Part shown: positions 4,020 to 40,700 of the stretch, piece by piece
Numbering within the stretch: position 1 is the stretch's first letter
Layout: the number at the start of each line of letters is the position of its first letter
DNA from: Argopecten irradians
Taxonomy: Eukaryota > Mollusca > Bivalvia > Pectinida > Pectinidae
Assembly: GCF_041381155.1 (NCBI RefSeq)
Contig: NC_091144.1
Span: forward strand, 12,905,544 to 12,969,543
Direction: 5' to 3'
DNA length: 64,000 nt
Translations under genes and position numbers: made by a program
Notes under the pieces: model-generated
Seen by the model: the letters and a program-made list of their open reading frames with translations, nothing else
Told to the model about the DNA's origin: nothing
Database searches by the model: none

Positions 4020-4601
4020 TTATAGGATGTTCGATAAATGTTCCTCGTGTTCATTTTTTGCAAAAGTAAAGTTTGACTTAGAATTTTTTACCATTCCGTT
4101 GTGTCGTGTTCGTCGTCTCCACTTTGCCAGTATTATGGAAGTTGTGCCAGTAGGCGGTGGATCCATTGGAGTAGTTGTGCCAGTAGGCAGTGGATCTATT
4201 GGAGAAGTTGTGCCAGTAGGCGGTGGATCCATTGGAGTAGTTGTGCCAGTAGGCGGTGGATCCATTGGAGTAGTTGTGCCAGTAGGCGTTGGATCCATTG
4301 GAGTAGTTGTGCCAGTAGGCAGTGGATCTATTGGAGAAGTTGTGCCAGTAGGCGGTGGATCCATTGGAGTAGTTGTGCCAGTAGGCGGTGGATCCATTGG
4401 AGTAGTTGTGCCAGTAGGCGTTGGATCCATTAGACTACCGACTGTTGTTTTAGTGTGTCCTGTCCCATCGGAACGAGAAGTAGAGGAACTCTTGACTCCT
4501 TCATTAGTCGGATCCACGGAAGTCATATCCTCCGATTTGAAACATGTTAGACTCATAAGTATTACTATTACTCCGTGTAAAATACTCATACTGTACTTCA
4601 T
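4020..4601 (-). CDS. Mucin-like secreted protein with 11-residue Pro/Thr repeats
   Basis: I place the start at the second in-frame Met (4601), because it is followed at once by a signal-peptide-like stretch (MKYSMSILHGVIVILMSL, then TCFKS). A Ser/Thr-rich segment comes next, then about nine tandem units of the form MDPPPTGTTTP, and finally a basic, Lys/Arg-rich tail of about 40 residues. Pro/Thr density suggests O-glycosylation, as in mucin or matrix proteins. The units form a higher-order block of four (MDPTP, MDPPP, MDPPP, IDPLP) occurring twice. The basic tail may be intron read-through, since a GTAAAA donor candidate lies within it. No homologue was recognised. The opposite strand is also open across the repeat only because 33 is divisible by three. 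Confidence 0.5.
   Translation of the reverse strand: MKYSMSILHGVIVILMSLTCFKSEDMTSVDPTNEGVKSSSTSRSDGTGHTKTTVGSLMDPTPTGTTTPMDPPPTGTTTPMDPPPTGTTSPIDPLPTGTTTPMDPTPTGTTTPMDPPPTGTTTPMDPPPTGTTSPIDPLPTGTTTPMDPPPTGTTSIILAKWRRRTRHNGMVKNSKSNFTFAKNEHEEHLSNIL
4140..4437 (-). repeat. 33-bp coding minisatellite (about 9 units)
   Basis: Nine tandem 33-bp units (+ strand core gttgtgccagtaggcggtgg then atccattggagta) lie inside the mucin-like frame. Unit variants (ggcggt, ggcagt, ggcgtt) alternate in a fixed order repeated twice, so a 132-bp block of four units was duplicated. Confidence 0.9.
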
Positions 4602-4639: not shown

Positions 4640-6940
4640 ATCGTGTATCATTCGACTGGACAATAGGCCTCCACACTGTTCATTTTATACATAAAAACAT
4701 AACACAAGGGATGGAATCCCACACAAAGGGCAAATGTTATATACAGCTGCTGACTGACAATTACATCGTATTACAACATTTAACATATCCCTGCTGGATG
4801 TTCAGGCCAATAGGAGCGAGACGGGTCATTTAGACAAGTTCTGTACATAACTACACTGTATTAGTGCTGATTAGCCTGTTCATCAGCAGCTGCTGTCATT
4901 GGGGACGTTAGATTGAATACACGATGTCATCGTATGTGATGAAAGTCCTAGATAACTTCCCCGCAGTAATCCTAATATCCCCGTTCAGTACTATGGATCG
5001 AGATGGGCTGTTAGAGCGCGTGTGATCTTTAGTTCTCTTTGTGATCAATGATGACGTCTTGTATCTCTATCATGTTACATTATCGTACAAACTCCCTACA
5101 GGGATTTCATCATAAACAACCAGTATACAACCTGGATAAATGATGGTGCTTTGATTACTCTTATGAAAAAACGTCGAGACAGAATAAATACCTTTATTAC
5201 GAATATGCTGACAAATGATGCTTGAAACATAAAATATTAATAGCAATTACGGCTATAGATTCCCCGTTAACTAACGTGGTATTTAGATAGATAATTGCTT
5301 CACTACATAGTTGATGGGTATAATGGTTTGATTCAAATTACAAAATAAAGATAGGATGTTTAATAATAGTGTAACACCGACATTAGGGAATGTTTCTAAT
5401 GCCTAGGAAACATGGAACTATTACCATGTCATTAAATTTATGGTCGTTACTAGAATAATCTTTATCTAAGTATGTATATTATTAACAATGCATAGCTAAA
5501 CCCCATGTGGTATAAAATAATTGCTCCGGAGCAATATTGAATTATTTTGCAGACATTGGTTATGGCAACGGTTTTCCTAGATACCAGAAAATCGGGTTTT
5601 ATTATTGCCACTGGTTTTTTAAATAAATGTTCGTGCATGTTTAAAAAAACAATAAAATCAAACAAACCAACATTTTATGGATATCGATTGACCCCATAAA
5701 CCCAATTTTTTAAAATATTATGATTTCCTTTACTGATTTTATAAAGAAATAAAGCCAACTCTGTTCTGTTACGGTGACCTTGCACTTGACCTATTCCTAC
5801 ACAAACACTAGTTTAATTGTTGGCAGAGGTTTTTTCCTAAAAATTCATGATACCATGACTAACAAATATTTGCTCTCTGATTTGTTATCCGTTATAACAG
5901 TACTAGCTATATATGTCCAATATATGCTAAACAGTTTTATTAGAAATAAAAAAAAAGTTATGCTTGTTATTTTATTTACATGAAAAAGGAACCTATTGCA
6001 TGGCCACAATTACTAGGTATGTAAGTACTAAAGGTAATGAAGTTATCCATATGACGGCCATATCGAATTTAGGCTAGAACAAATAAATGGCATAGAGTTT
6101 TCTTTTTACCAAATGAGGTATTGAAATAATAATTTCGGAAAAGAGCTGAAAATTAAAAAAAGAAACATCTAAAATCCAAGATATGATGGACATTTTTGGA
6201 ATTTAGTAACATTAAATTAAATTCTACTAGTGTTTATTTAGTTTGCCTATCACATATGCATAACTTTATCATATAGTGATTTACAAAAAAATGCCAACTG
6301 TATTGAAACGTAAATACATTGCATTATGGTAGAAAATGCTAACGTGCAGTACACTACCAGATATTTGAATCTACATAGTTTTTTTGGTGATGAAAATAAA
6401 GACATTTATTAGGGTTTTTTCAGTGAAAAAGTCTGAGGAATTCATTATTTTCTCGCCATTTCACAAAACTGAGAGGACAATTATGATGATTTTATCTTAT
6501 TCAGCATTTTTTAATCATTTGTAATTGAAATCCAAGATGTACGCCATATGACCCCAGGAGACATTAGTTATCAATGGCAACAAGCATAAAATAAAACAAG
6601 ATATCATACTGGTCCTAAAAACCCATGTTTCAAAACACTGCTAGAGGGATACATGGGAACCTATTTCTCTTTCCCCACTCTACTGGTGATTACATGATTA
6701 GTGATACAACTGAAAAGGAGTTGCCATGTGTGATTTTTTGCATATCTTACAAATTAAAAAAAAATCTCAAGAAATGGATAGGGTAAAACAAACATCAGCT
6801 TTGCTTCACCTGAAAGAAACTCGCTAAAATAAAGTACTCAAAACAACCAGGATCATGAATAAGATTTTTGGATACCTTTGAAATCGAATAAGAAGAGAAA
6901 AGTGCTAAAATTTACGATATTACAAGAAATGGTACAGGAT
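4640..6940. other. No gene recognised
   Basis: AT-rich sequence with scattered short open frames of 67-69 codons and no domain. The part just upstream of the mucin-like ORF on the - strand (4602-4800) may hold its promoter, but no TATA box or initiator was convincing. Confidence 0.4.
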
Positions 6941-8499: not shown

Positions 8500-11300
8500 G
8501 TAATTTCCTCCCCCTGGGTTAACCAAATCAGATATGAACGTTACCTAGCTAATAAATGATTAGAATTCCATTATGTATAATTCAGGTACATGCAACGGTG
8601 AGCACCCTATGCTGAGTATCTACCAACTGTACCGGACACATCAGTTACTCACCCTCCCCAGGGTTAACCTTGGCGCAGTTTGCATGTACCTGACCCGAAT
8701 AGCCTGTTGACCTACCCAGATCTGCGAGGCTCCATCGTACTCCCAGAGTAAATTCTTGGCGAGTAATCTCCATATTCTCCATCACGGAGAAACCAATAAC
8801 CAAAATCTGTATCCATTATACAGTTACTGTACATGTATCTCCGACATCTCAGCCCCCTGGGATTCACTAGGCAAGTGAAAGGAGGAGTCTATTGAAAAAA
8901 CTGGTTACCACATAATATTTTAGGGTATCCATGACTCCAAGAGTAAATCAAGCGAGCCAGTGCGTATACCCTTACAATCTATAATATACACAAATCAAAA
9001 GACAAATATAACCAAATTATGCCTGCTCGCCACACATGCCACTTGGAACTGTTTATACAGTTCCACCATCCATTCCTAAAGCTAGAGAATAAGTATCAAT
9101 ATTTACAAGGTAAAATTCACACTCTTAGGCAAATATCAATTTAAGACTTTCAGGTGTACCATCTGCCTCTTCTGACATGAACAGCTCTAATGCCCCTTGC
9201 AATGTAATTAGAAAAATTACATTTCCAATATCTGAGAGATGGGCCCCATCTGCCAAATGCAATCCTTTACAGTCATATGTAATATCTACATGCGTTATGA
9301 CTCTACCATTTTCCTTAAAACCAGCCTGACTTCCTATCCGATTAACACTTTTACGCTTCCTCTCTATCCCAGTAATTGATTACATCCCCGCCATTGTAAC
9401 CGCGGCAATATATCCGACCATATTAACATGCAATAAGCTAAACTCTTAGCCAAAGAATGTATATCATTCTCGATCCGTGTACTAAATACCGATGTTGAAG
9501 TAGTTGTTAAGTCATTACCTCCGGTGTGGATAATCAGGAATTGTGGAGGAGCACTCTGTGACAAATGCAAGGACAGGGTTCTTTTTACGTCATACTAAGA
9601 CAGTGCACGTTTCCTTATCCACTTAATTTTAGCCTTCAGATGTCGCAGGTGTCAATTTGGGTCCGACAATGAGAATGACATCCGATGTGCACAGTAGATA
9701 ATTGATGGCTCCAAAATTTAAATATCTGAAATGCTTATGGCTAGGTTAGCCTTTAATAATCTTAACCGTATAAAGGGGAATAACTCTAACTTCAATATCA
9801 AATTATTTTATCAATTCTAACATGTGTGGTGTACGCCTTTGATTTCCACCTAATTACCTCGTCTGAAATTCCTTCCATGGATAACGTTATAGCCTCTCCA
9901 ATTCTAAAGGAATGTGATTTGAAATTTCGATGGGGTATTAAAACCCTCCAATGCTCTTTTTACAATAAATAAAGATGTAGAATCTTCCCAATTCTGTAAT
10001 TTATGAATGTAACTAATTGCTGCTAAATATGATTTTACTGTGGTTGTGGTAGAACCTTTGTTTTAATGAAAGGCAATGAATCACAAAATATGTGAAAGTG
10101 GTACTGGCCAACTGTAATCGATCGTAAATAATGATTGAAATTGATTAAAACTGCGTAGTGCACTTTCATAAAGAGTTTTGGTGTTGCTTGAAATACTAGC
10201 ATATAAAAGTCGTCCAATTTTATCTGACAAATTCACCATAGCCAAATCGGAATTGGAACGAATGCCTTTTCTGCCTGTGGTACCAGTCGATGGAATTTCT
10301 TCAGCTGTAAACGTGACAAGCTATAGGTTATTACATTTGATTTTGTAGTCATAGTATTCACAATTGCCACTACTGATTTATTGTCACAGCGGAATAAATT
10401 TTCTTATTACGCAATTTTTCACTCCAGATATATACCGCCACAAACAAGGGAAAGAACTCTAAAATTGCAATGTCACCTGTGTAACCTAAGTCAAACCATG
10501 ATTCAGGCCAAACCCCGTATGTCCAACTCCCATTAAAAAATGCCCCAAAACCATTCCCCCTTTTTGCCGAGCTGTCAGTGTATAACTCCATGTCTGCATT
10601 TGTTGTCCAAACTTGTTCACTAAAAACTGAAATGCCATTAAATGTTTCAAAAAATCTCAACCAAAGTTTCAAATCTTCTCTAATGTCATTGTTTATTTTG
10701 ATATGATGGTATGGCTGTGTCAGACCTATCGTCACGTTGATTAACCTTCTACAGAAGGTACGACCCGGAAGTATTACCGTACAAGCAAAGTTTAACATGC
10801 CTAACAATGACTGCATAGCTTTCAATGTAGCTTTTGGCCTAGCTAGCATTGTCTGTATTTTCCCTAATTGTGTCTTTCGGCTGGCGGACACACATTTCAA
10901 TTGTATCAATTTCTAACCCTAAAAAACTATTAGCATAGCCTGACATTCAATTGAATTTGGTCTACCTCCGAAAAGGAAATCATCAAGATAATGTATTAAT
11001 TCGCCTGTAAGTGATTGTTGATTTACTGCCCACTCTAAAAATATTGATTTTTTTTTCAAACAAAGCACACGACAGAGAGCACCCCATAGGCAGGCACTTG
11101 TCAAAAAAATATTGATAGTCAAATTTGAAACCAAGCAAATCAAAATCCCCTGGCCAAATTGGCAAAATACGGAATGCTGACTTTATATCGGCCTTTGCTA
11201 GCAAAGCCCCTTTTCCCAAGCGATGAACCATGACAATTGCTTCATCAAATTTAGTATAATTTACCGAACATAATTAAGGATCAATGAAATCATTGACTGA
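8500..11300 (-). mobile_element. DIRS-like tyrosine-recombinase retroelement fossil with SGNH domain
   Basis: Read on the - strand, the parts run in this order: a reverse transcriptase of the DIRS/Ngaro type (LLAKADIKSAFR and LPMGCSLSCALFE at about 11230-11050), an RNase H-like region (10909-10370, ELYTDSSAKRGNGFGA), an N-terminal core-binding piece of a tyrosine recombinase (about 10220-9780), and an SGNH/GDSL-like hydrolase domain (about 9700-9120, with FLIIHTGGNDL and DGAHLSDIGN). A 13-bp inverted repeat (8583-8595 and 8680-8692) and a cttcccc/gttaacc-rich zone at 8500-8700 may belong to the terminal or internal complementary region. The copy is broken, with several disruptions and no intact open frame. 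Boundaries are approximate. Confidence 0.7.
8583..8692. repeat. 13-bp inverted repeat pair near retroelement end
   Basis: CAGGTACATGCAA at 8583-8595 is exactly inverted at 8680-8692. A related direct pair, ctgggttaacc at about 8513 and agggttaacct at about 8660, overlaps it. Such compact inverted structures fit the ends of tyrosine-recombinase retroelements, but the assignment is by proximity. Confidence 0.5.
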
Positions 11301-11429
11301 TGAATTTTCTGGATAGGACAAATGATGAATGAGTCTAAAATCCCCTGGATTTTTAATCCACTGGATTTTTCTTTGAAATTAAAGATTTTGGAGACACTCT
11401 CAAAGTTGATATCGGTTTCTGGTTAAAGG

Positions 11430-14400
11430 GGCCTATTATCCGACCACCTAAGCTAATTTCTTAGACCATTTTTATGCGTTTCTTTGAATGTTGATGACTT
11501 TGGCACGCTCGCCGATGTTTGTAATGTTGGTATTATGACCGGTGTGTCTCGTCCTTTGTTTCCCTCATTAAACTCTTCTTCCTGTAGGATGGCATTTACA
11601 GGATTGTGTATTGCACGCAGGTGCTTTCTGTTCCTTTTAAACCGTTTTCCATTCACACCAACAACATGATCTTGTTCCGATGTGTTCAACACATGTTCCC
11701 TTTTCCCGTGATTTTCCATGGTCCATTCCAATTGCTTGAGTTATATCCCACCCCTTCGTAAAATTCACAAATTCGGACGCGACAACTTGTGGTCCGTTGT
11801 CAGACACGATGCTATCTAGGCGTCCGTGTCTGTTAAAGTGTTGTTTAAGAAAACTTTTCATTGTTTCTGATGAAGTTTCTGATAGTTCATCAAGTTTCCC
11901 TAAGTCTGAGAAGTAATCAATTGTTACCAGGAAGTTACGTTTGTTCTGACTGAAGAGATCAACACCAACTTTACTCTATGAGAGGTTTGGAATGTCATGT
12001 GTGATGAGTGGTACGTAGACTTGTTGTCTTTCGAATTTAAGGAAGGCATCAAATTGCTGAATGTGATCGCTTATATCTTGAGACATGTTGGGCCAAAAAA
12101 GAGAATCCCTAGCTTTTCTCAATGATTATGCAATCCCGAGGTGAAAAGTATACCGTTATGAATTATCAAAAGTTGAAAAAGTATGCTGTGGCTGGGCACT
12201 GTTAGGAGGTATATCGTCAAAATTCTTATTAGAAACAGATTTAGATGTTAAAAAGATGGTTAAACTGAGAAATTTAAAGTTACTTGATAACATGAATTTT
12301 TCCTATTGGAGTAAAATTTCTTTTCAATGTAGTTAGTCTTCTTGTCATAGTTAAGTTTAGGTATAGCATGCAAGTTCACGACAAAGAGCTTTTGGATTTG
12401 CTCCAGTCTTTGTTCGCTGAAATTGAGATATTTCTTCACTTCAATTTATACCCTCTAACTGTTCCTCAAAGTTTGATGTTGCAACATTGAACTGTCAGAC
12501 TTCATAAGTGGAAAAATGCTCTGGACATCTCATACATCTCTGCCCCCGTCTGGTAATCAACGCTTATGTTGAACTTTTGTAGTCTTAGAACCAGGCTAAG
12601 ACTGATTGTTTGAAGACAACTTCAAGCAGTTTGTGGCATGAGTGGACCGTGACCTCGCGCACTAGAATGTATTGCTCAAATCTTTCACAAATAAATACAA
12701 TGGTTAAGCATTCCTTTTTACCTGTGCATATCGCTGCTCTGTTTGACATATACCTCTGGACGCGTACACGACTTATTTTTCTCCTGTACCAATGCTGCAC
12801 CCATACCAACTTTACTGGCGTCAAATTGTATGCTGACCTCTTTCTTCAGATCATAGTGCCTTGGAACTGGTTGTGTAGTCAAAGATTTCTTGACTTTCTG
12901 AAAAGCTTCCTCCTTTTGTGATTGCCAAGTCTATTCTGTTTCTTTTCCTGTGAGCTGCCACAGTGGTTCAATAATATCTGACAAAAGCGAAACACATTTT
13001 GTGAGGTAGTTTGCAAAACCGACGAATCGTTGTACCGTGTCATATCTGTGGGTCGAGGCATGTTAGTTATGGCTTTTACCTTCACCGGAACTCACTTCGC
13101 ACCGTCTGACGTCAGTAAGTGGCTCACGTATTCAGTTTTCCGCAAGTTTATTTCTATTTCGTCTATTGAGGACTTGAGACCGACTTTCTTTGCTCGTCCC
13201 AGGACATTGATCAGATTCCTGTCATGGTCCTCTAAAGCCTCCTCCATGGCTGAACCACTATAAAAAACGATGATGTCATCTACTATGACCTCGTCCCCTG
13301 TTAGACTTTCCAGGGCATCATGCTGTCTCCTTCAGAATTCTTCTGGTGTCGACTTAATACAAAACGACATTCTGAGCCATCTGCATTGTCCCAACTGTGT
13401 GCAAAAAGTCGTCAGATAGCTGCCGTGCTCGTCTAGAGCTACCTGCCAAAATCTATATTTGGTGTCCAAAACAGTGGACACCTTGGCACTACACAGTTTA
13501 GATAAGATGTCTTCCTCTGTGCTCATTGGATAGTGTGGTCGTTTTATGGCCTAATTTAAGTTCTTTGGGTCAATACTTAGTCATAGCTTTTCGGACGGTG
13601 TTCTCACGATCACCATGCTGCTTAATCCATTCTGTGGGTTCTGTGACTTTCTTTATCACACACCTGTTTACCAGAATGTCAATCTCTGTCCTGAGGTCAG
13701 CTTCCATAGCCTCAGGAAATTTCCTCGGACAGTCCTGTCCTGGGCTTACTGTGGTGTCAACCTCTATATGATATTCTCCTGGCAGTTTTCCTAAACCGTC
13801 AAATTGCACCGTGTAGTCTCTTACAATCTGCTCCTTTGTGATGGACGGTCTCTCATTTGTAATTACGCAGAATGCTTGGTTTATAGTAAGAAGTACAAAA
13901 TATTCACACGCATCTCCTGACAGTAGTGTGGGTTGATTTACATCTAATACCTGAAACTCCAGTGTTTTTTGATAATTCCCAACTGAATTGCACTCAATCT
14001 TGACTTTCCCGTTTGGATAAATATGCGATTTATCGTATAATGTTAGTTTTTTTGTTGGAGCGTTTAATTTCTACTTCTCCTTGATTTAGAATGGTTCTTG
14101 TACTGATAATAAGATTTGATGTCGCTCCCGGTCAAGTTGACATTTTACTTTCGGGGCAGCTGCTCCTACCTGCATGTTTAGCGTTGTAAAGTATTGTTTT
14201 CCCTTAGTTTTTGTTACATTTAGTAATGTTTCTTCCACACAAGAGATTCATCAGTGTCGGTTGTGCCAACTTTCGCAATTTTGTAATGTGGTTGTCTACT
14301 GTTTCATTAGTTTGGTCAGTGGTATTAAAGACATAAATAGCAAATATGACACTCGTCTGTGGTTAAAGAAGTCCTGCAAGGCACTGAGTACTTCTGCAAG

Positions 14401-16109: not shown

Positions 16110-16644
16110 TCACAAAAAAGATGATTTTTTGCGATATTTACAGAGCCAATAAAATGTCGTCTGACCACAAGCCGCGTGAACTTTACCATTCCGTCTAATA
16201 GGAGAATGTTTACTCATGGTGGAGTCCGGATATTGCTGCTTCGTTTTCAAATCATTAGATTTCTTTCCTGTTTCTTGAGACAGACTAAAGCGAGGTAAAA
16301 TCTTCGTTAATATTGCCGATACACCTTGAGTAGTAACAGTAGAATTCCGAGTCATAATGAACTCAACTAAGATCATGTAATATAGCCGAGAATCCAGATG
16401 ATCAGTTTTCAATATTTCCTTCACTGTAGCTTCCAGCTGCTCTTCAATCTTTTGATCTGTGATTCTAATAGGTTTATCAAAGTCATGTTTTCTTTCCCGC
16501 GTTTGATATGGTGTATCAGTCTGGTTTATGGTTGCCAGGATACGCGTATACAAAGGCTGATGAACAATCTGTAACACTTTATACTTAATGCTATTTAGAC
16601 CATCATTCTTCCATCGGTGAACGCTCATTTTAAGAAGGCGATGC
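16110..16644 (-). CDS. Copy A exon 6 (end of catalytic domain plus altered tail)
   Basis: Encodes LLKMSVHRWKNDGLNSIKYK and QPLYTRILATIN, the end of the GT7 fold, then a C-terminal extension. Up to PDSTMSKHSPIRR it aligns with copy B. The last roughly 25 residues (from NGKVHAACGQ to the end) do not, so the tail was replaced by other sequence. Confidence 0.75.
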
Positions 16645-19600
16645 CTACAATGTAATAAACGATTCTTTATGTGTAATATACCATTTATGATATTATGATA
16701 GTAAATTATATAAAATGCTTTATTCAACCTATCCCCGTTCCCTAACCTAGCATCGTTCCTATATATATACTTGTTTACTTACCTGTTCTCGTTCCCTAAA
16801 CTATCCTCGTTCCCTTACCTATCCCTGTTCCCTAACCTAGCCTCATTCCCTTACCTGTCCTCGTTCCCTAACCTATCCTCATTCCCTTTCCTATCCCTGT
16901 TCCCTAACCTAGCCTCATTCCCTTACCTGTCCTCGTTCCCTAACCTATCCTCATTCCCTTACCTGTCCTCGTTCCCTAACCTATCCTCATTCCCTTACCT
17001 GTCCTCGTTCCCTAACCTATCCTCGTTCCCTTTCCTATCCTTGTTCCCTAACCTATCCTCATTCCCTTACCTGTCCTCGTTCCCTAACCTATCCTCATTC
17101 CCTTACCTGTCCTCGTTCCCTAACATATCCTCGTTCCCTTTCCTATCCTTGTTCCCTAACCTATCCTCATTCCCTTACCTGTCCTCGTTCCCTAACCTAT
17201 CCTCGTTCCCTTACCTGTCCTCGTTCCCTATCTTATCCTGGTTCCCTTACCTGTCCTCGTTCCCTAACATATTTTCGTTCCCTTTCCTATCCTTGTTCCC
17301 TAACCTATCCTCATTCCCTTACCTGTCCTCGTTCCCTAACCTATCCTCATTTCCTTACCTGTCCTCGTCCCCTAACGTATCCTCGTTTCCTTACCTGTCC
17401 TCGTTCCCTATCTTATCCCCATTCCCTTGCATATACTTTTTACCTAACCTATCCTCGTTCCATAATCTATCCTCGTTTCCTAACCTATTCCGGTTTCCTA
17501 ACCTATCCCCGTTCCCTAACCTATCCTCTTTCCCTTACCTGCCCACGTTCCCTAAAAATCCTCGTTCCATCACCTATCTTCGTTCCCTAACCTATCCTCG
17601 TTCCCTACTAACCTTTCCTCGTTCCCTTACCTATCCCCGTTCCCTAATATATACTTGTTCCCTAACCTATCCCGGTTCCCTAACCTATCCCCGTTCCCTA
17701 ACCTATCCTCTTTCCCTTACCTGCCCACGTTCCCTAAAAATCTCGTTCCATCACCTATCTTCGTTCCCTAACCTATCCTCGTTCCCTACTAACCTTTTCT
17801 CGTTTCCTTACCTACATCCCCGTTCCCTTAATATATACTTGTTCCCTAACCTATCCTGGTTCCCTTACCTGTCCTCGTTCCCTAACCTATCTTAGTTTCC
17901 TTACCTGTCCTCGTTCCCTAACCTATCCTGTTTCCCTTACCTGTCCTCGTTCCCTAACCTATCCTGGTTCCCTTACCTGTCCTCGTTCCCTAACCTATCC
18001 TGTTTCCCTTACCTGTCCTCGTTCCCTAACCTTTCCTAACCTCGTTCCCTTACCTGTCCTCGTTCCCTAACCTATCCTGGTTCCCTTACCTGTCCTCGTT
18101 CCCTAACCTATCCTGGTTCCCTTACCTGTCCTCGTTCCCTTACCTTTCCTCGTTTCCTTACCTGTCCTCGTTCCCTAACCTTTCCTGATTCCCTTACCTG
18201 TCCTCGTTCCATTGCCTACAACATATCCTCATTCTTTAATACAATTGTTCCCTATTATTACCTTACAATCCCTCTGTCCTGTCCTTACTGTCTTTGAACC
18301 AATACCTATCATCGTCCTTTACCACTCCTAACAAGCATTTCCCAGTTCCCTTACTTGTCCTAGATTCCGCTAAGTGTCTTAGTATCTTTACCTTTTTACA
18401 TGTTTATTATTTCATTAACTTCCTGATCATAGCTTCCTTATAGGTTTCTCTTTCCTGTCTAGTTTTGATTACGTTTCATCGCATCCTCATCTGTCATTTT
18501 TTCCTTACCTGTACTCATTTTTCCACTATTCATCGTTTTTCGTCTCCATGACCTGTCCTAGTTTCCTCATGAGCCCTAGTTCCTTTACCTGGCCTATTTG
18601 CCTTACCTATACTCATTTCCCGGTCCTCCATCATTCATCGTTTCTCGTTCCCTTACCTGCCAATATCTTTGCTGCTGTTACAGTTTCCTTACCTTTCCTC
18701 GTTTCGTTTACTCTTATTATGTGGTAACATTCGGTAGGCGCTGACATCTGAGGTGTACCTAGTTACTGCTAGACCAACGGTACGAATCCTTAGGAATAAA
18801 TAACAAATATTTATGTTAGTAATATTCTTCATCAACTTACCGTTCATAAGTTTAAATTGAATACAATATTAGATTCGAGCCATGAACTGTGTAGTTTTGT
18901 TTGTAACATATATATATTCTACATCTTGCCTTTTTTATTATTTTTAGTAATAGTTTTATGAAGCAATACAATTTACTAATATCTAAGGAGCAGTTGTAGT
19001 TCATGAGTAGAAAAATAATCTACATCAGATTGTCATGTCAAGGTTTAGATGAAACCGCGTTATGTGTCCTTGGTGGTAAGCATTTAATGTTACGTCATGT
19101 TTTTATGAGTATAGATTTGGCTCATAAAATGATGACATCACAAACGATTTTTACTGCAAGGAAAATAACTATGTAAATGCAAAGAAGGAATACAGCAATA
19201 CACATGAAAATACAAAGAACTTCATTATTTAAAAGAAATTTGTTAAAGTGTCCGAATCTGCATTTTTCATTAAATCAGTGGGTTGTAACAAACAAATATT
19301 GAAATAATGAAAAAGTTATGTTGAACAATATTATACTTGTAAGTAAACACCACATATCGTTTAGCATTCTATATTCGACATCTTATAGAAAATGGCAACA
19401 GTAAATAGAGTAAATGATCAACTGGGATTTGTTAAATCTAAAGTCCAATTATGTTTTTAGAAAAATTCTACACACTAAATATCTACAATCCTTATGAATA
19501 TATCTTAATTTTATTCAAATATTCACAGTTTCTACAAAAATGCATATAAAAAATGTATATAAATATAACACGTAATGTGTAAGCTATGGATGAAAGTGTA

Positions 19601-22600
19601 TGTAGTGTTCTTTATATAATTGTTTTATAAAATCATAAGCGATACAATTTTTTTTTTGTATATTTCCATAATTTTCAGACCGTTTGAGTTAGCAGGGAAA
19701 ATCAATATAACTATAGCATTACCTCTCACTACAGGAAGAGGAAAGCAATAGGTTAGGTGAGGCACCCTCGTCAGCCAATACATTGTCTGAACTCTACACT
19801 GTAGCTGAGAGGTATGATATTTGTCCATTCACTCTTATAATATTATAGTAACATAATATACGGTGTATTTGAAAACTCAGAATTAAGATAATAACAGTAA
19901 ATTCCTGGTATGAATGAAGTGTGTCGAATGGATCCCCTCCTGTGAGAGGGCACAGTTGTGTAAGCCCTGTTTTGGTTTTTGGAATAAAAAAACCCAACTA
20001 ACACGTAAATGCGTTTGTTTAAAAATAGCCTATGTGTCTGTACATAACCGGATGACCACCATGTAAATCTAACAGACACCACGGGGAAGTTACGAACATA
20101 TTCAGATATATTAAATGTTTAACAATGTTCATTCTTATAAAACAGGTCCTTTTCTACAAAATAAAAACATACTACTCCAAAAGAAATATATACTGCATTC
20201 TGACGACTTTACACAAAATTGTTTGCCGAATAATTGCATAGATCAACTTAATTGGCTTTTCATTATTAACTCCCTTACTGTTTTCATATGACCAATTTAT
20301 AGTAATAATTTGTATAGGATTTGAATATTATGAGAAGGATTTGAAGTAATTTTCATAGAGATTCATTTTAAAAACAACAAAATTAAGATGACAATGCATT
20401 AGTGTCATCTGTCAACATTCATCAAATGAGAAAGGTTACAAAAGGCACAAAGCGGTCCTCGTGTGTGATTTTACCCACGTGTGGACTGTGGCATATACGA
20501 AGCAAACACAAAGGAAATCCCTGGTATTTTCCCGTCATTGCTTCAAACTTGATGAAATAATTAAGCTATTAGTGTCTGTTTAATGTTATCAAATCTATCA
20601 TTTGGCAAAATTTGATGGATTTTTTTCACGATTAAAAATATTATGAAAACATATTAGGACTTTAAATATCCAGCAAAATGTAGTAACACCAGAACATACC
20701 AATATGTTCCGATAAATTCATTCCCGCGGGTTGTATTATATTCCTTTATATTTTCTATTTACATAGAATATATCTAGAATCATCTAAATTAGAATACAAA
20801 TAAAAGCAGTAGCATTGCATCCGGAAACAAATACACAAAATTCCACTCTTCTCCCCAAAGTCATTTTGGAAAAAATAATATAGACAGATATTGTTTGTTT
20901 ATTTAAGGAATGCAGTTTACAAACCAGTAAACAACAAAAAATACATCATTCCTTATATTTACATTTCAACCAACTGTTCCTTTTATATGAGATGTCCCGA
21001 TAAGTTAAAACTTGGTTTTCAGCCAGTTAATTGGTGAAATCCCGGAACAGCTGGCTCCACTTTGGCGGAAAAGGTTGTTCAGAAAGTACTATCTTTTTAA
21101 TTACATTGATGCAATATTTATGAAATATAATTGAAGATATCAATTACATTCAAATTGTTTAATTGAAGAATTTGAAATACAGCAAATACCTGACACGAGC
21201 CAGCCGTGCTAGATCATGTGTATATATCTAAAACCTTCTCACAGGAAATCGTTAATACTAATGGGTATTGACATTAAAACAATATTCATTTTTAGGAGTT
21301 TGTTTGTCCTACCTGGCATACATATCGTCATCCTCACCGCCCCAATCAAAAAAACTTGTTTGAGTAGCCATTCACCGCTTCAAATACCTCCTTCCTCATC
21401 GCTATCACTCCACCGAACAGACTAACATAGGGTAACCTAGAATAGATAGAGCCAAACTAGAACAAAACCAGCATTTCTTCTAATCCAAATATAATTTTAT
21501 ATACCTGCGTAATAGCATTTAGTCTTTCATTTTTAGAAGATGTAATTATAATGCTATAATCCAGAAACCCTGATAAACCGATCAGATATGCTGGTGATGT
21601 ATTTTGATGATAAAACTTTACAGTCTTACAGGCAGTGCTAAGACACTGTGTTAGAATTGTTTTTTCTACCCTGTTGCAAACTCTTCTTCCTTATTTCTCC
21701 CTTGACACGCTGCACTCTTGGCATTGAGATAAGCGGTCGCTCTCGTGATGAAGGCTCTGGGTTATATCCCTTGGCCGGGGCACGTCTTTAGAGGTAGTTT
21801 CTGCTCATGCTTAGCGCTTAACATGAAGGGAGTGAGACGACTGATTTCCCCTTTGCATGGATAATATGACCGTATGTTTTGATCGGTGTATTAGGTAGTG
21901 AGATATAGCGGCACCACAAAATGGCTAAAAGTATCACTATTATTAAGAGACACAAGACAGCAGTCTCCCAAATTATAGACACACGCAACACACTGTTAAC
22001 AGGGGAGATCGTAATGAATAATTGGACCTTAAGCCCAATCAACCAACCAACCAGATGAAAGTTGCACTACTCACTTGTAACGAAACTTGTCGATGGCAAC
22101 AGACATGTGTCGGGGACTCTCAGAACACGTATACATGTTGTTATCGTTTTCTGGGATCAGGTCCACATCGTGGAAGATGAAGCAATTATAACCATATTTC
22201 TTGCTCACTTCGAGAAATGCGATGTTCATGCTAAGTGCTTTGTTGAATTTTACGGCTGGATCCTTACCAATGAAAAGAAAAATACATCAAAAATACAAAT
22301 ATAGTAAGATACCAAAAATGAAATTACTTTCACTAAGCATTTAAACGCAGACCATGGCTTCATCATCTGGCAGTGTAAATAATCTTTACCAGATAGATCA
22401 TATGAGGAAAATGTAAAATGAATTCCATGAAAGTTTTTTAATGTCAAATTTTACCTAAATCGTCTAGAATTTATAATTATATATATTTGTTGTTATATTT
22501 ACGATAGTATGGATATTTTGTGTGATATTTGCAATGTAATGTAACAATATACATATATAATATAAATCCGCAAGGGTATGTTTGAAGCACTCCGTACAGT

Positions 22601-25600
22601 CTGTAGATAGTGTGGGTATACTATCGTTGGTTCCACAGACGATAGAAATCTGAACATTGATAGTAATTTTAATTCGGTGTACTTTAATCCCTCTTAAATA
22701 GCATCTCATTTTGAGAAGATATTTACCAATTCTGTAACAAAGATGCCGTATTCAAGCTGTTGTTTCTGTAGTAAAGGATGGAGATTATTCAGAAGTATCC
22801 TAAGATGTCTGGTCCGATTACGAAAAGGGACGATTATTGCCACTTTATGTCGTGCTGTACAGGAAGCTGGGCGATAAACCCCGCCAAACGTCACTTCCGG
22901 TAATCGTAATGCTAATTCTCTATCCGTATAGCTCTTCACATCCACAGATATCTTCCCGCCTAAAGTACATGACAATCAATTCAAGTTAGCTCCATCTATC
23001 ATTGTTTCTTATTTTCTTTAACAGTCAATTTTTTTTGTTACTAGAAACAATCTATTATCAAAGAAGGGGTATCACTTTTGACCGTTTTACGGCCACTCAG
23101 TGATAAGCAAAGTATTTTGCATGAGGATACTTTAGGGTCAGCTGTATATAGTATGCTAATAAGAATATCCGATTTTTTCTGGGCTCATGGTAATTTCAGA
23201 GGTCAAAGGTCAAAGGGTGAAAAATTCACATGTTCATTGTTCAAGTCCTAAATAATTAAAAATTTGAATAGAGATAATATATTTTGCAGTTTTTGCATGT
23301 AAATATTTGGGTTTGTGAAATTCAGTTTAGAGCACTGATGACAAATTGAAAAAGTAGGTCACGGTGACCTAAAAAATGTCATCCGTCAACTAAAAATCTA
23401 CAATTTCAAGGCTTTAGAGTAATATTACGCACTTGAATTTTTTGTCACGATCTACTTCAGATGATTACATCATAGGTTCACTGAGTGGCCGTAAAACAGC
23501 CCAAAATCATACCCCTTCTTTAGTCATTTTTAAACTTCTTAGGATTAAATCGTGTCATAAACTGTTTATTTGGAGTAAGTCATGATTTTTCTGTTATGAT
23601 CTCTTTAGCACAAAATATCTATTTAAGTTAATTCTTTATGTATCCAATATATTAATCCTATTATTTCTGTGAAATTTCATATTTCAGGATGACTTATTTT
23701 CTATCAGAATCGATGATGCGAACAACGACGTTTTATTTTGATATTGCAATCTGGAGCGATCGTGCAATAAACAGCCATTTTGTTTGGGATGATAACTCTT
23801 CTATTTAATTTATCATGTTCCTTGTTTATTAACAAAATTTATATTGTCAAAATAAATATTTATTTAGCACCCAGAAAGTTTATTTCGCACTTCAAATACT
23901 TTTCATATAGCACTGTTTGGAAAATTTGTTGTGAAGAAAGAACGTCAGTATCAAGTGTCGACTATATTCGACAACGGGAAAGAGACAGTGTAAAATCCTC
24001 GGGAAACAGTACGGAAAGAGTAAGACAAAATAAACAAAGAAGAATGATATATGCATTTCTGAAGATTTATTTGTTGTTTTACAACTGTGGCATCAATACG
24101 TATATTAAGCCAGCCTTTGTATGGTAAAAAAAATTGGTGGTATTTAAAAAGAAAACAGTTACATTTGCTGTAACTGGACGAAAATTTTACATGTTAGTTT
24201 TTCTTCAATAATCTATTGAAAACCATAAGGTTTAAATTAATGTGTAGAAATCATTCAAATGGCTTCAGATGCCTTATAAACATGAGGTTCAACACAGAAA
24301 TTATGTACTGTAAAATTGTTGTTTGCTATCCCTATTGTATGTACGGAAACATACCTTCAGATATCACTTTATTATAATTAATAACACTGAAAAATGTGAA
24401 CTGAAATTGTAGACCACAATTTGGCTTCATATTCTGACCCAGAAACATATGTTTTTGCCTGACCATATGTACTCATTTCACTACATTACTGTACACGTGT
24501 AAATATAAGGATTTTGGCAGTATTGCCAAAATTCATTTTGAGCTCTTATTTGTACTTACGCATTGAAAGTACTGTAATTAAAAAAAAAAAACTTTTGGTA
24601 ATAAATAACATATTAAAAACTCATCTTGATTTGTGATAATGAAAAATACAACTTTGATTAAGGGATACTTTGTTTAACAGTAAAGACGACGAAAAGATGA
24701 CAATTGGCATTATTCTTCTACTTTCATTTGAATATGTTATCTAAATAATGTAACACTTGTAAATACTAGCCGAAATATATCGCTCGGCTAGAAAGAACTT
24801 TAGCTCGATCGGTTGAGCATCAGACTAGTAATCCAGAGGTCCCGAGTTCGGTCCCTGGCAGAGGCAGATATTAAATATTGCAAATTCTGCACCCTCAGGT
24901 ATAATATAAGTGATCGCACACATAAATATAGGAAAAGCTTATCTTTGAAAGCGATGTTATCAAGAATCTAATAAATACACATATTTGAGAAGCATAGATA
25001 TGAAGTACTGAAAGTAGAATTTGTATATGAATGGATGTCTGAGAAGGTGACAATCCTTAATGCTGTGTACAGGTCCTGTTAGTGGTGTAACCTGCCTTGT
25101 TGACCATCTCTGCATAGCGACCATCTTTAAAAAAAACCACTTAGACATGGTCCCATATGGTCAGTGGCAACCCTATGTGCCCTGTGTTTAAAGACATGTT
25201 GATTATAATCACAATATTTACTTTTCCCATTGGGGAGTCTTTACAGACAGATTTCATTGAAGTGATAAAAATGAGCTTTACTTACTAAGACCAGGCGGAA
25301 TCAAAGGACAGGGAGGAAGACCTGATTTGATATCGGTGACTATCTGCTGCCTTGAGTTGTAATTTGAAGTCCAGCTATTGTTTGTCTGATAAACTGAATT
25401 GTTACTTGACGTCACGGTGTTGTTATGCCGACTAGCAGTGATACCACGTAACGCCATGGTAACAGGAAAACCAGGCGATCCCACTGATCTGGAATTCCAT
25501 ACCATACTACTTTTTGCTGCAATCTGTCCATGATACCAAGCCTCTTGTGTATTGTCCCGGGATGCTAACATCGGAACTTGTTGTCGACTAAAGGTATACT

Positions 25601-33361: not shown

Positions 33362-36300
33362 ATGTCAATAGTGTCAACAATGTAGACAGACTATGTCAAT
33401 AGGGTCAACAATGTAGACAGACTATGTCAATAGGGTCAACAATGTAGACAGACTATGTCAATAGGGTCAACAATGTAGACAGACTATGTCAATAGGGTCA
33501 ACAATGTAGACAGACTATGTCAATAGGGTCAACAATGTAGACAGACTATGTCAATAGGGTCAACAATGTAGACAGACTATGTCAATAGGGTCAACAATGT
33601 AGACAGACTATGTCAATAGGGTCAACAATGTAGACAGACTATGTCAATAGGGTCAACAATGTAGACAGACTATGTCAATTAGAGTCAACAATGTAGACAG
33701 ACTATGTCAAGTAACAATGTAACAGCTATGTCAATAGGGTCAACAATGTAGACTGACTATGTCAATAGGGTCAACAATGTAGACAGACTATGTCAATAGG
33801 GTCAACAATGTAGACAGACTATGTCAATAGGGTCAATAATGTAGACAGACTATGTCAATAGGGTCAACAATGTAGACAGGCTATGTCAATAGGGTCAATG
33901 TAGACAATGTAGACAGACTATGTCAAATAGGGTCAACAATGTAGACAGACTATGTCAATAGGGTCAACAATGTAGACAGACTATGTCAATAGGGTCAACA
34001 ATGTAGACAGACTATGTCAATAGGGTCAACAATGTAGACAGACTATGTCAATAGGGTCAACAATGTAGACAGACTATGTCAATAGGGTCAACAATGTAGA
34101 CAGACTATGTCAATAGGGTCAACAATGTAGACAGACTATGTCAATAGGGTCAACAATGTAGACAGACTATGTCAATAGTGTCAACAATGTAGACAGACTA
34201 TGTCAATAGGGTCAACAATGTAGACAGACTATGTCAATAGGGTCAACAATGTAGACAGACTATGTCAATAGGGTCAACAATGTAGACAGACTATGTCAGG
34301 TCATATGTAAAGACTATGTCATAGGTCAACAATGTAGACAGACTATGTCAATAGGGTCAACAATGTAGACAGACTATGTCAATAGGGTCAACAATGTAGA
34401 CAGACTATGTCAATAGGGTCAACAATGTAGACAGACTATGTCAATAGTGTCAACAATGTAGACAGACTATGTCAATAGGGTCAACAATGTAGACAGACTA
34501 TGTCAATAGGTCAACAATGTAGACAGACTATGTCAATAGGGTCAACAATGTAGACAGACTATGTCAATAGGGTCAACAATGTAGACAGACTATGTCAATA
34601 GGGTCAACAATGTAGACAGACTATGTCAATAGGTCAACAATGTAGACAGACTATGTCAATAGGGTCAACAATGTAGACAGACTATGTCAATAGGTCAACA
34701 ATGTAGACAGACTATGTCAATAGGGTCAACAATGTAGACAGACTATGTCAATAGGGTCAACAATGTAGACAGACTATGTCAATAGGGTCAACAATGTAGA
34801 CAGACTATGTCAATAGGGTCAACAATGTAGACAGACTATGTCAATAGGGTCAATAATGTAGACAGACTATGTCAATAGGGTCAACAATGTAGACAGACTA
34901 TGTCAATAGGGTCAACAATGTAGACAGACTATGTCAATAGGGTCAACAATGTAGACAGACTATGTCAATAGGGTCAACAATGTAGACAGACTATGTCAAT
35001 AGTGTCAACAATGTAGACAGACTATGTCAATAGGGTCAACAATGTAGACAGACTATGTCAATAGTGTCAACAATGTAGACAGACTATGTCAATAGGGTCA
35101 ACAATGTAGACAGACTATGTCAATAGGGTCAACAATAGGTCAACAATGTAGACAGACTATGTCAATAGGGTCAACAATGTAGACAGACTATGTCAATAGG
35201 GTCAACAATGTAGACAGACTATGTCAATAGGGTCAACAATGTAGACAGACTATGTCAATAGGGTCAACAATGTAGACAGACTATGTCAATAGGTCAACAA
35301 TGTAGACAGACTATGTCAATAGGGTCAACAATGTAGACAGACTATGTCAAATAGGGTCAATAATGTAGAAGCAGACTATGTCAATAGGGTCAACAATGTA
35401 GACAGACTATGTCAATAGGGTCAACAATGTAGACAGACTATGTCAATAGGGTCAACAATGTAGACAGACTATGTCAATAGGGTCAACAATGTAGACAGAC
35501 TATGTCAATAGGGTCAACAATGTAGACAGACTATGTCAATAGGGTCAACAATGTAGACAGACTATGTCAATAGGGTCAACAATGTAGACAGACTATGTCA
35601 ATAGGGTCAACAATGTAGACAGACTATGTCAATAGGGTCAACAATGTAGACAGACTATGTCAATATGTCAATAGACAGACTATGGTCAACAATGTAGACA
35701 GACTATGTCAATAGGGTCAACAATGTAGACAGACTATGTCAATAGGTCAACAATGTAGACAGACTATGTCAATAGGGTCAACAATGTAGACAGACTATGT
35801 CAATAGTGTCAACAATGTAGACAGACTATGTCAATAGTGTCAACAATGTAGACAGACTATGTCAATAGGGTCAACAATGTAGACAGACTATGTCAATAGG
35901 GTCAACAATGTAGACAGACTATGTCAATAGGGTCAACAATGTAGACAGACTATGTCAATAGTGTCAACAATGTAGACAGACTATGTCAATAGGGTCAACA
36001 ATGTAGACAGACTATGTCAATAGTGTCAACAATGTAGACAGACTATGTCAATAGGGTCAACAATGTAGACAGACTATGTCAATAGTGTCAACAATGTAGA
36101 CAGACTATGTCAATAGGTCAACAATGTAGACAGACTATGTCAATAGTGTCAACAATGTAGACAGACTATGTCAATAGTGTCAACAATGTAGACAGACTAT
36201 GTCAATAGGGTCAACAATGTAGACAGACTATGTCAATAGTGTCAACAATGTAGACAGACTATGTCAATAGTGTCAACAATGTAGACAGACTATGTCAATA

Positions 36301-36386
36301 GGGTCAACAATGTAGACAGACTATGTCAAATATAGGGTCAACTATGTAGACAAATTGTGTCAATAGTGTCAACAATGTAAGACAAC
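33362..36386. repeat. 31-bp satellite array (about 97 units)
   Basis: Unit tatgtcaatagggtcaacaa + tgtagacagac. Most units are nearly identical. A G-to-T variant (agtgtcaa) is sparse at first and frequent after about 35780. A few units are shortened (ataggtcaa) or scrambled near 33710, 34300, 35350 and 35660. The edges decay within one or two units. Confidence 0.97.
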
Positions 36387-36399
36387 TAGGAACTGTTTC

Positions 36400-37718: not shown

Positions 37719-40700
37719 CTGAAACAAACAGGTTATGTTTTCGTATTATACTTTTTATACAAACATTATATACCTCTAGAATTTAGTATTTATTGCTTAC
37801 TTATGTAGTTATTTGTATAGTTATCATTGAAATTTGGTGAGCTTTCAAATTAGATCTAAAATTATATTAAATATTTTGCAGTTGTTTAAGTAAGTCAACA
37901 TTTTCGGGGTCTGAACTAAATTGTAAATTTTGTTTTATCTATCAATTGATCTCAACCTCTTCTAATTTCATATCCGATGTTTTATCTCTCCTCGTCACGA
38001 GATATATATCATTCATTTCATAACGTTCTCTTCAATCATTCACCCATGAACTCTTCACGCTTTTTAATTAGAAGAGTTCATTAATGTTTAATTTTGTCAC
38101 CAGATGTGTGTATTTATATGATCATAGAAATGTAAGGTTCAATAACTTGTCGATAATTACTTGTACCCCTCGAACTTAGTTGACACGATTTTGCTCTTTA
38201 AATAGAACAGGTCAGTCACATACATAGTGTAAACACAAGCTTAATTAATGTATATTCAAATGTATATGTATGCACACATATGGAAGTAGATACAGATAAT
38301 ACTTGTGTTACACACATATGGAAGTAGATAAAGATAATACTTGTGTTACACACATATGGAATTAGAAAAAGATAATTCTTGTGTTACACACATTTGGATA
38401 GATAAAGATAAATACGTATGTTACACACATATGGCAGTAGATAAAGATAATTCTTGTGTTAACACACATTAGGAATAGATATAGGATAATACGTATGTTA
38501 CACATATGGCAGTAGAAAATAAAATTCTTGTGTTACACACTATATATTTTACACTTGATATGCTTTGTCCTACACACAATTCTAGCCGATTTAGTTTACA
38601 TAAAGCATGGTAACATTGAACTGTTGACACACATAAGAAAAGTTCTATGAGTAAAAGGGATATTTTGATTTAAACAAACACATGGCTTTGTTTACATTTT
38701 GATGCAACATTACGTGTATATTGTTGTTCTTTCATAGAATTTTGGAAAAATAAGTTAAACAATAATATACCTGTTTTATATATATATATGATTCACACCA
38801 TTTTTTAAATTAACAAATGTAAAAAGAACGGGTAGAATAACCCGAGACGTCGCTTTCATTTTGTGTAAAAATATGGGTGTCCAAATGTTAAACATTACCT
38901 CTGTGTGTGTTCGTGCATACTGATCTAGTCTTTTTGGGTGTGAGACCTCCTGATGAGGTAGATACAATACTTGTGTTACACAACTATATTTATTTATAAA
39001 TACATGCAGCTAGTAATACGTGTTGAATGTTACGCGTCACACCAAATACATTTGTATTCCATCGAACCAAGTGATAGTTGTTCCATTATACTAAAATGTG
39101 TTACACATACCTGGAATGGATGAATAGAAAAAGTCTAACAAACTTTAGCTCTTTGAAACACTGGAGTTTTGACAACTTCGGAAAAACTCCATTAAGCCGT
39201 GCGTCCCTTCGCCTCGCTGCACAAGATACGGTCACCCGAGTTGTGCTATATATACTTTTTGCAAAATTTAATAACACATATGGAATTAATTTAAATTTTA
39301 CAACATATATTGGATCGTCGCGGGATGAATAATTCTACTTAACGTGATCCATCTTGCTGTTACTCCCACTTTGACCGTCTTTTATACTTTCAAATGAATT
39401 TTATTGTATATAAACACATTATGAAGTAGATATAAGATTATCTTGTGTTACACACATATGGAAGTAGAATAAAGATAATTCTTGTGTTACACACATATAG
39501 GAAGTATACTTGTGTTACACACATAAGATAATTCTTGTGTTACACACATATGGAAGTAGTAGAAAAAGATAATTCCTGTGTTACACACATATGGAAGTAG
39601 AAAAAGATAATTCTTGTGTTACACACATATGGAAGTAGAAAAAGATAATACTTGTGTTACACACATATGGAAGTAGAAAAAGATAATTCTTGTGTTACAC
39701 ACATATGGAAGTAGAAAAAGATAATTCCTTGTGTTACACACATATGGAAGTAGAACATAAAGATAATACTTGTGTTACACACATATGGAAGTAGAAAAAG
39801 ATAATTCTTGTGTTACACACATATGGAAGTAGATAAAGATAATACTTGTGTTACACACATATGGAAGTAGAAAAAAGATAATTCTTGTGTTACACACATA
39901 TGGAAGTAGATAAAGATAATACTTGTGTTACACACATATGGAAGTAGAAAAAAGATAATTCTTGTGTTACACACATATGGAAGTAGAAACAAGATAATTC
40001 CTGTGTTACACACATATGGAAGTTACACACATATGGAAGTAGAAAAAAGATAATTCTTGTGTTACACACATATGGAAGTAGAAAAAGATAATTCTTGTGT
40101 TACACACATATGGAAGTAAAAAAGATAATTCTTGTGTTACACACATAGTGGCAAAGTAGATAAAGATAATTCTTGTGTTACACACATATGGAATTAGAAA
40201 AAAGATCAATTCTTGTGTTCACACACATCATGGAATTAGAAAAAGATAATTCTTGTGTTACACACATATGGAAGTAGAAAAAGATAATTCTTGTGTTACA
40301 CACATATGGAAGTAGAAAAAGATAATTCTTGTGTTACACACATATGGAATTAGAAAAAGATAATTCTTGTGTTACACACATATGGAAGTAGTAGAAAAAG
40401 ATAATTCTTGTGTTACACACATATGGAAGTAGAAAAAGATAATTCCTTGTGTTACACACATATGGACAGTAGAAAAAGATAATTCTTGTGTTACACACAT
40501 ATGGAAGTAGAAAAAGATAATTCTTGTGTTACACACATATGGAAGTAGAAAAAGATAATTCTTGTGTTACACACATATGGAAGTAGAAAAAGATAATTCT
40601 TGTGTTACACACATATGGAAGTAGAAAAAGATAATTCTTGTGTTACACACATATGGAAGTAGAAAAAGATAATTCCTGTGTTACACACATATGGCAGTAG

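Follow-up and report, generated by a model that had tools for sequence, protein, structure and literature searches.

Boundaries between exons and introns can be multiplied in tandem. Points of reference are amphioxus Adh, reportedly the subject of Canestro 2002, and the human gene 6-16 (IFI6, G1P3), in which Turri, Cuin and Porter are said to have described in 1995 a minisatellite that gives multiple splice donor sites. The units added in IFI6 are readable in frame. In amphioxus, minisatellite-like duplications of exon–intron boundaries are termed 'mirages'; the accessible sections of one report place them at both 5′ and 3′ boundaries, give units of 10–72 bp in Adh3 and of about 150–160 bp in the globins BflGb6 and BflGb9, and describe them as apparently without effect on splicing and as a proposed source of new introns (PMC3087553). 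The available text of a further report adds TnC and PGBD5 to the mirage genes (PMC3902484). For IFI6, the accessible part of a separate account has two downstream repeat units acting as donors (PMC4526556). The intronic minisatellite CeRep25B of C. elegans is over-represented near regions of alternative splicing, according to the sections of the source that are available (PMC4039745). Mollusc reports of such arrays were absent among the matches listed in the open-access literature.

Here, we focus on an intronic array in the scallop Argopecten irradians. In this genome, a muscle myosin exon agrees at 49 of 49 residues with the S2 fragment of PDB 1nkn/3bas/3bat (Myosin heavy chain, striated muscle/GCN4), which are scallop (Argopecten) entries; a COX1 search (PF00115) gave no match, and another myosin locus, L066, had a non-muscle appearance by eye. 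The window, the whole stretch of 64,000 nucleotides that was analysed, at C11:12905544-12969543, holds two inverted copies of a B4GALT-like gene, A on the minus strand and B on the plus strand; the exon 2–3 peptides of copy B match PF13733 (E 4e-46), and a third copy, C (locus L037), lies outside the window. We consider it very probable that intron 5 of copy A carries a minisatellite of the mirage type, in which a segment of the exon-5/intron-5 junction was duplicated in the ancestor of A and B and amplified into the intron, the extra donors being mostly passive, and that the same process has acted at other junctions. The window contains further repeats: two large minisatellites at 33362-36388 (31 bp x 98) and 39525-43642 (38 bp x 109), whose TRF consensus holds no donor-like word, and a 33-bp repeat (x 8.8) at 4140-4431 that lies in open frames of both strands and is possibly coding. 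Broken open frames at 10370-14070 (minus) resemble, by eye, pieces of a retroelement polymerase.

Exon 5 of copy A (18693-18788, minus) ends in RMLPHNKSKRNEE and the first two bases of R, and the coding part of exon 6 (HRLLKMSVHRWKNDGLNSIKYKVL...) occupies 16110-16644 on the minus strand, beginning at 16644. The 2048-bp intron 5 that separates them (minus, 18692-16645) is occupied nearly in full by the array. The tandem-repeat finder TRF, a check proposed in the initial annotation, returned a single array at 16726-18210 with a period of 18 bp (81.9 copies, score 1603) or, scoring better, 36 bp (40.9 copies, score 1862); on the minus strand, GTAAGGGAACGAGGACAG is found in alternation with GTTAGGGAACGAGGATAG. 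This minus-strand stretch is the homogenised core of the array, built of 18/36-bp units and holding 24 of the 26 CAG|GTAAGG decoys. From the TRF edge up to the donor, 481 bases of decayed array remain (part 18211-18692, minus): wrap-around alignment to the unit scores 98, against a maximum of 28 in 200 dinucleotide shuffles, and decoys lie at +36 and +184. The array touches the donor, and the earlier statement that it begins beside the donor is borne out. The first intact decoy, at +36, stands exactly two periods (2 x 18) from the donor.

The authentic 5′ splice junction of exon 5, AACGAGGAAAG|GTAAGGAAAC (18683-18703, minus; G of GT at 18692), differs from AACGAGGACAGGTAAGGGAAC at two of 21 bases, so that the agreement of 19 bases in sense orientation, from which the initial annotation started, was recovered. 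Like a mirage, the unit spans the exon–intron boundary, and the array sits at the boundary that it copies, in register and in sense; the unit includes the exon sequence that codes for the NEER end of exon 5. Within intron 5, CAGGTAAGG occurs 26 times in sense and never in antisense, which agrees with an earlier count of more than twenty near-perfect U1-binding units, and AGGTAAG occurs 32 times in sense and never in antisense. The word GAAAC flanks the junction on either side at a spacing of exactly 18 bp; it may be the microhomology that seeded the initial slippage, or what is left of a worn second unit. A simple shift test is weak for copy A (10 of 18 bases at +18, outranked by 6 of 10 at +10).

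The unit is rare in the rest of the genome. A search of 846 Mb with the 21-mer, allowing up to 2 mismatches, found 32 places and none for the reversed control, where about 0.75 would be expected at random (hand arithmetic); the match to the junction is thus better than chance, the point on which the initial annotation could have failed. These places comprise 27 in array A (7 of them exact), the copy A donor, two in array B and two elsewhere. The exact 18-mer CAGGTAAGGGAACGAGGA was found once, because the units alternate. Elsewhere in the window, with the stretches of array A, its donor and array B set aside, the 21-mer fits best at the copy B donor, with 4 mismatches, and then at sites with 7. 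A genome search with 353 bases of array A, which skips very common words and whose match count is a lower bound, matched at least A, B and C1:58109914-58111642 (68-70% identity). The initial annotation had named, as what would count against it, the same minisatellite elsewhere without a B4GALT exon; the sole other similar array found is this last one, which lies at a donor of a VPS13-like gene, and the claim stands. An introner or other dispersed repeat, expected to place the same sequence at many unrelated loci, was rejected, as only this one VPS13-like array, in the search that skips very common words, and the two off-locus 21-mers were found besides A and B.

These counts also bear on the idea that an ordinary intronic minisatellite came to resemble the donor by chance. 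The other large minisatellites of the window have no donor-like unit, and at the edge of certain arrays that contain donor words (C2:35071521) no exon was seen, as coincidence would allow. It is, however, strongly disfavoured, and extremely improbable in our estimation, given only two off-locus places within 2 mismatches in 846 Mb, the register of array A at +36, and the recurrence of such arrays, with units that include exon sequence, at exon donors of other genes both inside and outside the family.

Copy B shares the array in decayed form, as had been claimed. Its exon 5 (56234-56329, plus) ends in NKE and the first two bases of R, its donor junction is AACAAGGAAAG|GTAAGGAAAT (56319-56339, plus) with the donor GT at 56330, and its intron 5 measures 1334 bp, exon 6 beginning at 57664. 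The decayed homologous array extends over 56331-57442 (plus); TRF detects its core at 56872-57442, and the stretch from the donor to the TRF edge (56331-56871) has a wrap-around score of 99 against a shuffle maximum of 25. Array lengths differ between copies A and B (by TRF, in one assembly). In copy C, the donor reads AACAACAG|GTAATT and intron 5, of about 556 bp, has no array and no TRF row. Copy C and relatives L039-L042 have their exon-5 donor at the same place as copy A, and by TRF their introns 5 yield no row at all or one of 40 bp at the most, and no long array. A shift of the copy A donor within the family was ruled out, since the donors of relatives share its position. Because copy C and L039-L042 share the donor position but lack a long array, the array most likely dates from the interval between the divergence of copy C and the separation of A from B, with decay later in B.

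The same loci weigh on the reverse direction of events, in which the intronic array came first and one of its units became the donor of exon 5. Nothing speaks for it directly; exon 5 of copy A ends in NEER, and some relatives have a longer N..NPxR. Against it, copy C and L039-L042 use the same donor position with no long array there, and the units of the guanylate cyclase, RyR/IP3R-like, L045 and L046 arrays described below hold coding sequence of their families. We regard this reversal as highly improbable.

The copies differ in other respects. Exon 4 of copy A has a T7 run (21348-21354, minus) where copy B has T6, and the reading frame in this assembly is shifted ahead of WGGEDDD; the extra T may be an assembly error, or copy A a pseudogene. 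Both A (in the shifted frame; 21313-21436, minus) and B (about 54530-54660, plus) read FFDWGGEDDD, a G-to-D change at a place that is conserved in copy C and L039-L042, which read FGWGGEDDD. Soon after exon 3 of copy B lies a 73-bp array (53437-54047, plus), which probably grew after the A/B split because several of its units resemble a single 66-bp stretch of copy A (21939-22004). Downstream of exon 6 of copy C there is a 36-bp array (L037, 2838-4715).

Arrays at splice junctions recur among relatives of the gene. The sample comprised 12 loci around B4GALT-family matches (L037, L039-L049; 101.8 kb; L042 and L043 overlap), chosen by gene family and not by repeats. Within it TRF gave 24 arrays of 120 bp or more, none overlapping another; four start at exon donors, with differing units, and one ends at an acceptor. 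L045 has its own array at the homologous exon-5 donor (sense 4981-6727, 50 bp x 34.8), and TRF thus shows that the relatives are not all free of arrays. Its exon 5 tail reads GAATCCTGAAAG|GTGAGTACTAG and its units GAATCCTAAAAG|GTGAGTACTAG, with decoys AAAGGTGAGT about every 50 bases (27 in sense, 0 in antisense). The remaining donor arrays, for which exon ends were set by local tblastn and reading, are those at exon 3 of L046 (45 bp x 19.1) and exon 4 of L047 (44 bp x 9.0), both of which start inside the exon, and that at exon 3 of L047 (32 bp x 28.6), which starts immediately behind it; in both L047 cases the shift test is weak and the first units are worn. In L046, a 42-bp-spaced array (sense 4822-5170) ends at the exon-6 acceptor and contains TTCTACTTACAG nine times, the real acceptor included. 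Acceptor-born arrays therefore exist, and a process confined to donors was dropped; intron 5 of this locus also holds 7 AGGTAAG. With about 41 donors in these loci (counted by hand), about 0.8 of the 24 arrays would be expected to start within 40 bp of a donor and 4 do, a comparison that covers few loci and in which two of the four arrays share one gene (L047). For acceptors, the same 24 arrays give a similar 0.8 at random, against 1 observed.

Donor arrays are also found in unrelated genes. The array at C1:58109914-58111642 (35 bp x 52.7) starts at the donor ...CAGGAGGGAATGGGGCCAG|GTAAGGGGAAATAAAT, which its units reiterate; exons next to it have a weak match to VPS13_N (E 2.6e-5, short of the Pfam cut-off), and the array-bearing exon gave no family match in the domain search. 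Eight further arrays are all those among the listed matches of three donor-word searches (two, four and two arrays). Three of the eight have a family-supported coding exon at the array edge, from a guanylate cyclase (PF00211, E 1.6e-4, missing the cut-off by 0.1 bit), an OSCP1-like gene (PF10188, E 0.024, under the cut-off) and the RIH domain of an RyR/IP3R-like gene (PF01365, E 1.5e-8), the only one of the eight to exceed the Pfam cut-off. Two (L051, L054) have an open exon between AG and donor with no family match, and the edge exon of another two (L056; L057/L059) is neither established nor excluded; at L053 no exon was seen at the array edge. The array represented by L057 and L059 (C1:67382133-67389460) runs for roughly 7 kb and has a partly palindromic unit, TGTACCTGTACAG|GTAAGTATACAATGCTGA. 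The exon tail is repeated at the unit period in the VPS13-like gene (22 of 28 bases), L051 (28 of 32) and the OSCP1-like gene (38 of 45). For the guanylate cyclase the shift peak is at 39 (20 of 20), not at the usual 42, and the test is weak for L054 and for the RyR-like case, which is best at 46 and not 39.

Genome-wide counts of splice words are suggestive only. Patterns of three tandem copies with gaps of 8-38 were counted on both strands, with the pattern read backwards as control. The donor words gave 17729 versus 3130 backwards for AGGTAAG, 835 versus 20 for AAGGTGAGT and 741 versus 42 for CAGGTAAGTA; the scrambled word AGGATAG gave 5811 and its reverse 6077; and the acceptor words gave 262 versus 802 (TTTTCAGG) and 4234 versus 3893 (TTTNCAGG). 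Because overlapping words were counted, a single long array contributes repeatedly, and donor words can also come from arrays born at acceptors. When separate arrays rather than words are compared, the contrast for the donor word shrinks: among the matches listed, AGGTAAG has 2 in the first 2.9 Mb of C1 and AGGATAG 9 in the first 34.5 Mb.

A field of decoy donors could affect splicing. When units were scored as 5′ splice sites, as the initial annotation had suggested, the CAG|GTAAGG decoys had a U1 pairing energy of -11.5 against -10.0 for the real copy A donor, AAG|GTAAGG. In intron 5 of copy A, 27 of 109 GT sites surpass the real donor in U1 pairing, and on its antisense strand none of 122 lies at or below the donor's energy; in other stretches of gene A the donor is beaten by 1 of 164 sites (18900-21900, which holds exon 4) and 0 of 105 (23100-25200), and in copy B by 3 of 80. 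Pairing thus predicts that the decoys of array A are stronger than the true donor, a poor fit with simple passivity. Read-through past exon 5 meets TAA at once (NEER* in A, NKER* in B), so that the units, unlike those of IFI6, are not readable in frame. Use of a decoy would accordingly add a stop directly after exon 5 and truncate the protein, and a decoy beyond about 50 nt would expose the mRNA to nonsense-mediated decay. In the core of array A, the two GT positions are conserved at 0.91 and 0.91, the unit mean being about 0.86, and position +3 is T in 42 units, A in 38 and G in 2; unit conservation in this core shows neither purging nor keeping of donor bases.

On these data, the array might compete with the true donor for U1 and so lower productive splicing of copy A, or guard against premature polyadenylation within the intron, the strength of the effect being set by the number of copies. 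The excess of strong sites in intron 5 over its antisense strand and the other stretches of gene A is what such a role predicts, as is the truncated or degraded mRNA that would follow from a used decoy, and the idea keeps a small share of probability because U1 binding at the decoys should equal or exceed that at the donor. We think it unlikely: about half of the core units have T at +3 and the conservation of GT gives no clear sign of selection, the array has decayed in copy B, copy A carries the exon-4 frameshift, and amphioxus mirages reportedly leave splicing undisturbed in the accessible text of both reports (PMC3087553, PMC3902484). Tolerated, near-neutral growth of the array appears likeliest from the sequence, because donors are neither purged nor kept and exon 4 of copy A is frameshifted.

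Birth of array A by amplification of the gene's own donor, as the initial annotation had proposed, is strongly supported by sequence comparison, because the unit holds exon sequence, the register is kept at the donor, relatives share the donor position without a long array, and the anatomy recurs elsewhere with other units. In this origin from the junction, an 18-bp segment straddling the exon-5/intron-5 boundary would have been tandemly duplicated in the ancestor of A and B. Slippage or unequal exchange would next have multiplied the duplicate into the intron, in a later phase with a 36-bp dimer as the unit. Both copies would have inherited the array, which decayed in B. The original donor would have kept its place, with the extra donors mostly passive, and such duplications may be tolerable because it stayed there. 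Separate rounds of the same process would have given rise to the arrays at other splice junctions, donors for the most part, in genes of this scallop both inside and outside the family.

Junction-born arrays are apparently common in this scallop genome. More speculatively, and rather doubtfully, junction duplication in scallops, chiefly of 5′ splice sites, could be a major repeated route of intron growth, with donor copies tolerated since the original donor comes first and acceptor copies tolerated less often; in some genes the number of decoys might tune U1 competition and output as a fast-evolving splicing rheostat. Several questions can now be addressed computationally: the frequency with which intron growth draws on duplicated junctions, a possible greater tolerance of duplications that span donors than of those that span acceptors, the selection of a single donor where dozens of sites match or exceed it in U1 pairing, and a possible role of junction arrays as seeds of new introns.

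The comparison with other systems indicates that exon-boundary minisatellites occur in a mollusc too, repeatedly, in related and unrelated conserved genes. CeRep25B is not described as derived from a splice junction in the accessible sections of its source (PMC4039745). The human IFI6 minisatellite, like the scallop array, contains multiple splice donor sites, but, in the available part of its account, its downstream donors lead to alternative mRNAs, where read-through past exon 5 in the scallop leads to an immediate TAA. Amphioxus mirages, as far as the accessible text of their reports extends, are likewise tandem duplications that span and sit at an exon–intron boundary, with many repeats holding AG/GT signals (PMC3087553, PMC3902484). 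They differ in host, a cephalochordate and not a scallop, and in copy number, BflGb6 having 3 and 6 units in the available description against 81.9 x 18 bp in copy A and 52.7 x 35 bp in the VPS13-like gene; in the scallop relatives examined, donor arrays outnumber acceptor arrays 4 to 1, unlike the mirages as described in those sections. The amphioxus mirages are the closest known kind of array, and human IFI6 is a single precedent.
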